DNA of 64,000 nt from positions 62,001-126,000 of the forward strand of contig QFXH01000006.1 of NCBI GenBank assembly GCA_003402345.1, written 5' to 3'. Below are positions 33,139 to 36,171 of the stretch, piece after piece. Positions within the stretch are counted from its first letter, which is position 1. Every line of letters begins with the position of its first letter. The notes under the pieces are model-generated. The model was given only the letters and a program-made list of their open reading frames with translations, was not told the origin of the DNA and did no database searches. The DNA is from Candidatus Nitrotoga sp. MKT. GTDB taxonomy: Bacteria > Pseudomonadota > Gammaproteobacteria > Burkholderiales > Gallionellaceae. The translations under genes were made by a program, and so were the position numbers.

Positions 33139-33429
33139 ACTGCTTACCTCCTTCATTACTTTTATACTTCTTCCATGACGCACATATTAATCACCCATGC
33201 GCTATGGCTATTGAACGAATAAGCCTAGAAAATCGTCTTAATTTCCACGTTATAAATGCAGAAAAAACGAAGCGCCCGAAAGCTGTCCACTAAAATAAAT
33301 AAACAAAACATGGGGTCAGACGGAAAATTGCAACCAAAATGTTATGAATAACAACAGCCACTTCAACTTATTCCCGATTTCAGTCAAACTGACAAACCTC
33401 ACCACATGCCACTTCAGGTTGAAAAAGAT

Positions 33430-33942
33430 ATGAACAAATTATTCATGGCATTGATTTTGTTATTAACGGGGTGCGTTGGAATTCCTGAAAATGTGAAACC
33501 CGTTGAAAATTTCAAGTTAGAGAACTATCTCGGCAAGTGGTATGAAATTGCGAGGCTGGATCATTCATTTGAACGGGGTTTATCTCGAGTAACAGCAAAT
33601 TACAATTTACGAGATGATGGCGGTTTACAAATAATAAATCGTGGTTATTCTGCAAAAGAAAATAAATGGAAAGAAGCCGAAGGGAAAGCCTATTTCGTAA
33701 GAGAGCCAGATCAGGGTTACTTGAAAGCTTCTTTCTTTGGCCCCTTCTATGGTTCTTATATCGTATTTGAACTTGACCATAAAAATTATCAATATTCACT
33801 TGTATCCGGCCCTGACAAATCTTATTTTTGGATTCTGGCAAGAACACCGCAACTAAATGACAATATAAAAAGTGCCCTCATAGAAAAAGCTGCGGCATTG
33901 GGGTTTGACACGAGCAAATTGATACATCCCAATAACGACTAA
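33430..33942 (+). CDS. blc: Outer-membrane lipocalin (Blc family)
   Basis: Lipid-binding lipoprotein of 170 residues from ATG 33430, the start that places the signal sequence correctly (MNKLFMALILLLTGC, lipobox LTGC). The lipocalin fold motifs are GKWYEIARLDHSFERGL and the C-terminal FWILARTPQL. The family usually binds fatty acids or lysophospholipids during envelope stress. No operon partner is evident. Confidence 0.93.
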   Translation: MNKLFMALILLLTGCVGIPENVKPVENFKLENYLGKWYEIARLDHSFERGLSRVTANYNLRDDGGLQIINRGYSAKENKWKEAEGKAYFVREPDQGYLKASFFGPFYGSYIVFELDHKNYQYSLVSGPDKSYFWILARTPQLNDNIKSALIEKAAALGFDTSKLIHPNND

Positions 33943-34059
33943 TCAGCCATTACGGAAAAAAGCGATGCCATAATTGCCCGCTGCATTTGTTATTAAACGG
34001 GTATAAAGTTTGATCACGGAGGTTTGCATCATGAAAGCGGCTAAATTGAGGAGTAGACA

Positions 34060-34929
34060 ATGATTAGACTGACTTATGCCAGCACCACAAACCAAGAATG
34101 GAGTCCAGAGGAGCTGTTAAGTCTGTTAAAGCAATCCCGGACAAATAACGGCGCTAAAAATATAACCGGAATTCTCCTCTATTCAAACGGAACTTTTTTT
34201 CAAGTTTTGGAGGGTGACGAAGCAACCGTTGAAGACTTGTATAAGACAATAGAAAAAGATCCGCGTCACAAAAACTGCACGCTCATTGAAAAACTCAATA
34301 TAACTGAACGGGCATTCCCATATTGGAGCATGGGCTTTGAAAAAATAACGCCCAAAGAATTAAGAAAAATGGAAGGTCTTAATAACTTCTTCGAACATGA
34401 TTTCACTCCTGCCGGTTTTGCTTCACATAAGAACATTATTGGTCCTTTATTGACCCACTTACGTAGCAAACTTGTAAAACAAGTGAGCACCGAAAGTCAT
34501 GAAGAACTTCCAACAGAGCATAATGATCCATTTATAAAATACTTACACCGTACTATACGGATAGGCGTTAAGTTTTTGTCCATATTAATGGTCGCTGTCA
34601 TCCTGTTGAGCATTGCTGATGTACTTTATGTTATCTGGGTAAAAATTAGTAACTCGCCGCATTTTCTGATGACCACAAATGACCTGCTGGAAACATTTGG
34701 GTCTTTTTTGGCCGTATTGATAGCTATCGAAATTTTCCTAAATATAACCATATACATCAGGAGTGATGTAATACCAGTCAAACTGGTTGTAGCCACTGCG
34801 TTGATGGCCATTTCGAGAAAAGTCATCGTTTTTGACTATAAACACTTGGCTCCCGAATATGTAAGTGCTTCAGCCTTGGTACTGATCGCCCTGGGTATCA
34901 CCTATGTGCTGGTTAAAAAAAGCGACTAG
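34060..34929 (+). CDS. BLUF photoreceptor fused to a PsiE-like membrane domain
   Basis: Predicted blue-light sensor, 289 residues. The N-terminal BLUF domain (1-97) has the flavin-site residues expected of active members: Y6 (RLTYAS), N34 (NITGILLY), Q48 (FFQVLEG) and W89/M91 (FPYWSMGFE). A linker of about 70 residues follows. The C-terminal part (about 165-287) has four predicted membrane helices (about 172-193, 210-232, 240-251 and 267-285) and the pattern ALMAISRKVIVFDYKHL with a final hydrophobic helix, which resembles the PsiE (phosphate-starvation-inducible E) family. The output is therefore membrane-bound rather than an enzyme. It is followed after 42 bases by an MFS gene on the same strand. 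BLUF assignment is firm; PsiE assignment is by pattern recognition. Confidence 0.85.
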   Translation: MIRLTYASTTNQEWSPEELLSLLKQSRTNNGAKNITGILLYSNGTFFQVLEGDEATVEDLYKTIEKDPRHKNCTLIEKLNITERAFPYWSMGFEKITPKELRKMEGLNNFFEHDFTPAGFASHKNIIGPLLTHLRSKLVKQVSTESHEELPTEHNDPFIKYLHRTIRIGVKFLSILMVAVILLSIADVLYVIWVKISNSPHFLMTTNDLLETFGSFLAVLIAIEIFLNITIYIRSDVIPVKLVVATALMAISRKVIVFDYKHLAPEYVSASALVLIALGITYVLVKKSD

Positions 34930-34971: not shown

Positions 34972-36171
34972 ATGAAAGTTGATCCAGCGGTCAAGAAATT
35001 GGGCTTGCACCCAGACGTACTCAAGCTGGGTCTGGTGAGCTTTTTAACTGACCTTAGCTCCGAGATGATTTTTTCCGTTTTCGCGATTTTCTTTACAACC
35101 ATCGCAGGGGCATCCGCCGCTTTGCTTGGCATGATCGAGGGACTTGCCGATTTGTCCGCATCCTCGTTGAATTACTTAGCTGGCTGGTTGTCCGATCGGA
35201 CCGGAAAACGCAAAATATTCGCTCTGGCCGGATATGGTTTTTCCGCGCTGGCTAAAATCATTCTGTTAATCACCAGTTCGGTCGTGGGACTCAGCATATT
35301 TCGTGTCATCGAGCGGCTGGGCAAGGGTTTCCGCGGGCCGCCACGGGATGCCTGGCTTTCGGCAGTATCCGACAAAAACACGAGGGGATATTCATTCGGA
35401 GTGCACAAGGCCCTCGACAAATCTGGAGCCATTCTTGGCCCACTTGTAGCGTACGCCCTGCTCTCGTGGCTTGGGGACGGCGCCTCGACGTTCCGGATCC
35501 TGTTCTGGGTCGCGCTCATTCCCGCCTTGCTCGGCATCGTGGTCTTAAGTCTCATCAAAGATCAACCAGGGGTTCAACACCCACGCGAGAACATGTTGGA
35601 AACATGGAAAATTCTCAGCCCAGAATTCAAACGCTATCTCGTCGCAGCAGGAATTTTTTCGCTGGCCTATTTCAGTTTCGGCTTTCTACTGTTGCGTGCA
35701 CACAGCGTCGGATTTTCAGTCAAGGACATCGTGTTGCTTTATGCCTTGTTCAATATTGCATTCGTTGTTGCATCACCGCTGATAGGCAAACTTGGCGATC
35801 ATTTTGGAAGGGCGCGGATAATTATGCTGGGCTACCTGATCTATCTGTTGATGAGCCTGGGCTTCGCATTCGCGACCACACAATGGCAAGTCATTGTCCT
35901 GTTCATCATCTATGGCGTGTTTTATGCGATCGACGAAGCCCAGAGCAAGGCATTTATCGCGGATATTGAATTGGAGCGGCGCGCATCTGCGATCGGCCTC
36001 TATAGTTTTGTGACTGGCCTGATCTACCTGCCTGCATCACTGATCGCTGGGGCGTTGTGGTTAATGCATCCGTCCAGCGCTTTCTTTGTGGCCGCATGTT
36101 TCGCTTTTACCGCACTGACAGTATTCGTATTCTTGCGGCCAGACCAAAAACACTGTTCTAACGCTTATTGA
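34972..36171 (+). CDS. MFS transporter
   Basis: Major facilitator protein of 399 residues with about 11-12 membrane helices. The loop 2-3 motif is present as GWLSDRTGKRK, and the segment VIERLGKGFRGPPRDAWLS is typical of a group of bacterial MFS proteins annotated only generically. Substrate unknown. It lies 42 bases downstream of the BLUF-PsiE gene with no obvious SD, so cotranscription is possible. It appears more GC-rich than its neighbours by eye. Confidence 0.88.
   Translation: MKVDPAVKKLGLHPDVLKLGLVSFLTDLSSEMIFSVFAIFFTTIAGASAALLGMIEGLADLSASSLNYLAGWLSDRTGKRKIFALAGYGFSALAKIILLITSSVVGLSIFRVIERLGKGFRGPPRDAWLSAVSDKNTRGYSFGVHKALDKSGAILGPLVAYALLSWLGDGASTFRILFWVALIPALLGIVVLSLIKDQPGVQHPRENMLETWKILSPEFKRYLVAAGIFSLAYFSFGFLLLRAHSVGFSVKDIVLLYALFNIAFVVASPLIGKLGDHFGRARIIMLGYLIYLLMSLGFAFATTQWQVIVLFIIYGVFYAIDEAQSKAFIADIELERRASAIGLYSFVTGLIYLPASLIAGALWLMHPSSAFFVAACFAFTALTVFVFLRPDQKHCSNAY

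Follow-up and report, generated by a model that had tools for sequence, protein, structure and literature searches.

The nitrite-oxidizing bacterium Candidatus Nitrotoga carries, in the 64,000-nucleotide stretch of DNA analyzed here (hereafter the window), a gene for a 289-residue protein in which a BLUF photoreceptor domain is fused to a PsiE domain. As judged from its sequence, this is a BLUF receptor with a membrane-integral output; a literature search covering few subscription papers did not recover BLUF–PsiE. Since the fusion recurs, often beside genes that counter light damage, it is likely to be a light switch in the membrane. We lean, by a modest degree, towards the view that it is a membrane-integral blue-light receptor acting in protection against photo-oxidative stress, with light activity, topology, coupling between the two halves and the protective role being what we infer from the observations below.

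The gene occupies positions 34060–34929 of the forward strand as one open frame with no interruption, and a Shine-Dalgarno sequence, AGGAG (34049–34053, forward strand), lies 6 bases before the start codon. Pfam searches recover BLUF (PF04940) across residues 1–92 (34060–34335; E = 9.9e-32, 109.4 bits against a cut-off of 25) and PsiE (PF06146) across residues 170–288 (34567–34923; E = 2.8e-33, 115.1 bits against a cut-off of 23.9). These two matches bear out a first-pass annotation, made from the letters of the DNA, that had described a BLUF domain fused to a PsiE-like membrane half; the profile search it had proposed for the C-terminal half returns PsiE at 2.9e-34 when the last 125 residues are searched alone. 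NCBIfam offers no family for the 289-residue fusion at E-values up to 1. That an assembly frameshift, or the chance joining of two genes, produced this frame has a negligible probability: 57 uninterrupted fusions are found across many assemblies, and the linker between the domains is conserved and under selection. The two grounds on which the first-pass annotation would have fallen are thus both removed, the lack of a PsiE match by the strength of that match and a frameshift artefact by the recurrence of the joined frame. The start codon of the fusion is overlapped by a short ORF of 10 codons (34031–34063), preceded by a GGAGG of its own; it is present in one further Nitrotoga locus (L024) and is not kept in four others (L025, L026, L027 and L057).

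The flavin site can be read against the short BLUF protein Tll0078 (TePixD), whose alignment to the window protein has no net gaps and shifts the numbering by +2 (query 3–96 to chain 5–98). Taking the PixD flavin-site residues to be Y8, N32, Q50, W91 and M93, this offset presumably equates them with Y6, N30, Q48, W89 and M91, to which we assign the same flavin-site roles. The first-pass annotation had instead listed Y6, N34, Q48, W89 and M91, and all five are indeed present in the window protein. All of the 57 full-length fusions have N30 and Q48; Y6 and W89 are each retained in 55 and M91 in 56, as against just 34 for N34. The ungapped Tll0078 offset together with this conservation pattern (57/57 versus 34/57) identifies N30 rather than N34 as the flavin asparagine; hence, four of the residues listed earlier stand while the fifth is to be replaced. 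By this measure of conservation, most of the fusions retain the full photochemical site. Some are perhaps not photoactive because phenylalanine replaces Y6 in two of them (L053 from Methylobacter luteus and L055 from M. sp. BlB1) and W89 in another two (L130 and L134). Phenylalanine at position 6 is the state of laboratory Y-to-F mutants, and the two Methylobacter proteins may be naturally light-blind.

A model of the protein shows the BLUF fold in residues 1–80 (block pLDDT 81–91); PixD and TePixD head its list of PDB matches in Foldseek, which also includes BlsA, with up to about 150 columns aligned to these proteins. The short-BLUF unit runs to about residue 143: the model has a helix at 124–143, and when stand-alone BLUF proteins are compared with the fusion profile, the match extends to positions 123–144 in several of them and to only about 91–118 in others. 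The closest stand-alone PsiE proteins, in turn, match the fusion from about position 138–154 onwards. These boundaries make the fusion look like two complete proteins joined together. The region between the two Pfam matches (residues 93–169; 34336–34566, forward strand) accordingly comprises C-terminal helices of the short-BLUF type, as indicated by conservation, the model and dN/dS, and the motif H147-E-E-L-P151 at the join, which leads into PsiE and is invariant in 35 of 35 sequences.

Hydropathy plots of the PsiE half have four hydrophobic peaks, at about residues 181, 222, 247 and 276, in agreement with the four membrane helices proposed earlier; four helices also appear in two models, whose confidence is moderate to low (mean pLDDT 66.8 for PsiE, and 48–72 across PsiE when the whole protein is modeled). 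The segment SRKVIVFD, which the same annotation had called PsiE-type, conforms to a signature derived by eye from the alignments, A-x-x-R-K-x-I, that occurs in 28 of 30 PsiE frames other than fusions. Positions invariant in the 57 fusions include N228, R234, R253 and K254, and the core from F213 to Y260 is nearly invariant in one of our alignments (A2). Comparison of the window gene with six Nitrotoga orthologues gave dN/dS values of 0.16–0.21 for residues 1–100, 0.04–0.12 for residues 101–165 and 0.07–0.22 for residues 166–289; purifying selection thus acts on BLUF, linker and PsiE alike in these six pairs. In Escherichia coli, psiE is induced by phosphate starvation, and we know of no report of a function for the PsiE family.

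A survey for other BLUF–PsiE fusions, as the first-pass annotation had advised, yielded the 57 full-length, uninterrupted examples, which come from Ca. Nitrotoga, Methylococcales and a family (f230) of another class. A scan of named contigs recovered 38 loci, whose sources include Nitrotoga, Methylobacter, Methylovulum and Crenothrix; its queries were only two BLUF-side peptides from a close alignment, so that distant fusions were possibly missed. One carrier of the fusion available in culture is the methanotroph Methylobacter tundripaludum SV96 (L038). Thirty-four of these loci are full length without a stop, the remainder being interrupted (L052 with one stop and L060 with seven in the frame read) or partial (L032 and L061). 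The final count leaves out repeats of genomes already in alignment A2 (L145–L157), as well as 13 more loci with short flanks only from the order that includes Methylococcales. Within the window's genus, the fusion is present in 9 of 19 genomes, with eight full-length copies and one split across contig ends (G015); Ca. Nitrotoga sp. CP45 and genome G003 are among the carriers in this genus. A sample of 349 genomes from the window's order, with no other member of its genus among the rows shown, produced a match at 1e-40 in the window's own genome only. By comparison, among 251 genomes from the order including Methylococcales, 43 genomes contain between them 44 matches of full length, of which the one in G447 has an internal TGA. 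A class-level sample of 369 genomes has full-length fusions in two, the window's own and a member of the latter order (G309). In a phylum-level sample of 398, there are six full-length fusions, the window's own and five from family f230, with a sixth f230 genome (G841) giving a partial match; that family has the fusion in 5 of its 74 genomes at 1e-40. Ca. Thiodictyon syntrophicum carries a further fusion, 45% identical, on its plasmid pTs485.

When the 57 full-length fusions are placed on one tree, all eight sequences from Nitrotoga fall into a single clade (support 100/96) that is sister to those from a Methylococcaceae MAG and Crenothrix polyspora (100/97 for the ten together) and is nested among methanotrophs. 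This nesting, taken with the absence of the gene from the rest of the order sample, makes transfer from a methanotroph the simplest explanation, and judging from the tree Nitrotoga probably gained the fusion in this manner. The fusion itself may have arisen once or several times: the PsiE-domain tree needs four changes, one of which is forced by strongly supported branches. At one locus (L075:6532–7718), a lone BLUF gene is divergent to a lone PsiE gene whose product is 62% identical to the PsiE of a fusion (L039). Other architectures were also encountered. By its profile match, a 484-residue frame (L086:764–2218) is another PsiE fusion, with PsiE at 359–474 behind a membrane part that is TerC-like by eye. 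Two ORFs upstream of BLUF–PsiE in an uncultured member of Methylococcales, a 1224-residue protein (L048:1578–5249) combines Pyr_redox_2, cNMP-binding and BLUF domains with a weak DoxX match.

We counted neighbors by tblastn within 6 kb of the 57 fusions, some of which have short flanks. RudS (DUF523/DUF1722; TudS-DUF1722) was found near 16 of them, a lipocalin near 12, SodB and MerR near nine each (one MerR, in L159, being a weak 33% match), LOV/PAS proteins near seven, and photolyase and cytochrome bd subunit I near three each. At least one of photolyase, RudS, MerR or lipocalin is seen at 28 of 57 fusions (L159 included) versus 2 of 30 other PsiE loci within the same distance, both of the latter belonging to one family (Fisher p = 4e-5, the loci being related and kinship ignored). 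The contrast persists at 28/57 versus 2/25 (p = 4e-4, again ignoring kinship among related loci) once five rows are dropped, namely L136 (G447, one TGA), L086, L087 and two frames of L088, which are long or odd. This four-gene contrast involves few independent transitions, and an independent-pairs test on it has almost no power. Along the tree, loci gain or lose this four-gene label 13 times or more, indicating that the neighbor association comes and goes, and 29 of the 57 loci have none of the four genes within the flanks examined, some of them short.

In one f230 locus (L169) the genes for photolyase, RudS, a 199-residue protein, a lipocalin, BLUF–PsiE and ferrochelatase run head to tail as an operon. 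Successive members of the first five overlap by 107, 4, 4 and 4 bases when the longest frames are taken, so that BLUF–PsiE begins within the last 4 bases of the lipocalin gene; a gap of 60 bases separates the fusion from the start of ferrochelatase. The 199-residue protein (L169:3171–3770) matches no Pfam family at 1e-5. In a locus from family f210 (L130), the fusion is closely flanked on both sides, by the end of photolyase at 27 bases upstream and by the end of RudS at 23 bases downstream. Stand-alone PsiE genes of one family (L083 and L163) are likewise clustered with lipocalin, photolyase, MerR and RudS, and in L163 (f202) all five are on one strand. A published account (PMC11417400) reports that RudS genes share light-responsive operons with genes for photolyase and LitR.

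Some of the same neighborhoods could be read differently, with the BLUF flavin reporting redox state rather than light to PsiE and the photoprotective neighbors reflecting general oxidative stress. The SodB and cytochrome bd genes counted above would fit such a redox sensor, as would genes for catalase, Cu/Zn-SOD and cytochrome c peroxidase that precede the lipocalin–fusion pair in three Nitrotoga loci (L025, L027 and L057), and the four fusions with phenylalanine at position 6 or 89. However, Y6 is kept in 55 of 57 fusions, and photolyase and RudS are specific to light damage; we therefore regard redox sensing as improbable and prefer a response to blue light.

In the window, the only one of the four recurrent neighbors is a lipocalin gene of the Blc type (33406–33942; Lipocalin_2, 7.8e-40), 117 bases upstream of the fusion on the same strand. 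It is kept beside the fusion in seven of the eight Nitrotoga loci with a visible upstream region (the window, L024–L028 and L057, but not L030), while the genes flanking the pair vary between loci. On the other side, an MFS transporter gene (34972–36171; Pfam MFS_1) follows on the same strand. The first-pass annotation had correctly placed it 42 bases downstream, as the ORF coordinates show, and had suggested that the light-controlled process might be tied to it. The short gap and shared strand would suit regulation of the transporter by the fusion; nevertheless, a homologue of this transporter occurs within 6 kb of just three of the 57 fusions (the window, L024 and L027), all from Nitrotoga, which leaves such a tie very improbable.

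We also considered that PsiE might merely anchor or multimerize the protein in the membrane, with lit BLUF binding or releasing a partner in solution, for example a regulator of the MerR/LitR type. Nine fusions have a MerR gene within 6 kb; in three of these (L046, L049 and L058) it is divergent from the fusion at a distance of 156–257 bases, and the L049 regulator has B12-binding domains. A precedent is available in Pseudomonas mendocina, where a short LOV protein is reported to bind PmlR2, a class II LitR (PMC9758184). Against this, the MerR regulators of L163 and L167 have no B12 domain at 1e-5 in Pfam, and the L049 LitR has no match at 1e-5 in the window's genome, a search made with a single query and no positive control that other LitR classes may escape. 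Moreover, the 300 bases upstream are not enriched in the class II LitR box: when up to 3 mismatches in 12 are allowed, 20 of 57 fusions have a box, compared with 176 out of 570 dinucleotide shuffles (p = 0.55), and when up to 2 are allowed, 1 of 57 compared with 26 of 570. The lack of box enrichment and of a LitR match also leaves light induction of the fusion gene unsupported. Finally, the near-invariance of the PsiE core in alignment A2 is beyond what an anchor would need. Hence, we consider partner switching unlikely, though less so than redox sensing, and favor a direct effect of light on the PsiE domain. In the window's genome the fusion is the only BLUF protein found, with one further PsiE and one photolyase encoded elsewhere.

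Under the favored reading, the short-BLUF unit, complete and ending at about residue 143, would be cytoplasmic and flavin-bound, and blue light would switch the hydrogen-bond network around Y6, N30, Q48, W89 and M91. The signal might then travel along the C-terminal BLUF helices and across the conserved HEELP linker to reach helix 1 of PsiE, altering the state of the four-helix membrane domain. Our leaning is that PsiE would thereby change membrane or ion permeability, or its interaction with a membrane partner, helping cells under light-driven oxidation. The sequence features thus favor the probable light-controlled membrane process that the first-pass annotation had drawn from the pairing of a BLUF receptor with a four-helix PsiE half. 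A link of PsiE to membrane energetics or ion handling is weakly hinted at by its neighbors: BLUF–PsiE lies near cytochrome bd subunit I genes in L029 (6001–8404), L034 and L133 (in L029 and L133 it precedes them by 59–158 bases), stand-alone PsiE genes lie near antiporters that look CPA2-like by eye (L078, L079 and L082), and in heat-resistance loci a PsiE gene is listed next to a KefB-type potassium efflux gene (PMC5347186). In its most specific form, which we put forward tentatively as an unlikely but conceivable case, the fusion would be a light-gated non-rhodopsin membrane protein, whose flavin domain, on the cytoplasmic side, directly makes the four-helix domain more or less permeable or alters how it handles ions, and thereby protects the light-sensitive membrane metabolism of chemolithotrophs and methanotrophs.

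Methanotrophs are subject to inhibition by light. Photoinhibition of nitrification is documented too (PMC9239080). The fusion could accordingly bear on how nitrifiers and methanotrophs respond to light. More generally, the covalent attachment of a membrane domain to BLUF would constitute a new class of output and a possible optogenetic tool, and the PsiE family would gain a testable input.

Among known systems, the short BLUF proteins PixD (Slr1694), TePixD (Tll0078) and BlsA have the BLUF fold, flavin-site residues and C-terminal helices in common with BLUF–PsiE; they are soluble chains of 136–151 residues, to which the fusion adds the four-helix membrane domain. As seen in sequence matches, BlrP1 (BLUF-EAL), the cyclases bPAC and OaPAC, and AppA have the light domain N-terminal to the output, as in BLUF–PsiE, but the outputs of BlrP1, bPAC and OaPAC are EAL or cyclase domains while that of the fusion is a membrane domain without known catalysis. 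Stand-alone PsiE proteins (PF06146) share the whole domain and the A-x-x-R-K-x-I signature with the fusion, but have no sensor domain and are found beside light-damage genes in only 2 of 30 loci. Lastly, the LitR/CarH light-response operons have photolyase and RudS genes that also adjoin part of the fusion loci, in several lineages; in contrast to these operons, BLUF–PsiE shows no LitR box enrichment upstream and would have its light sensor built directly into the membrane protein.
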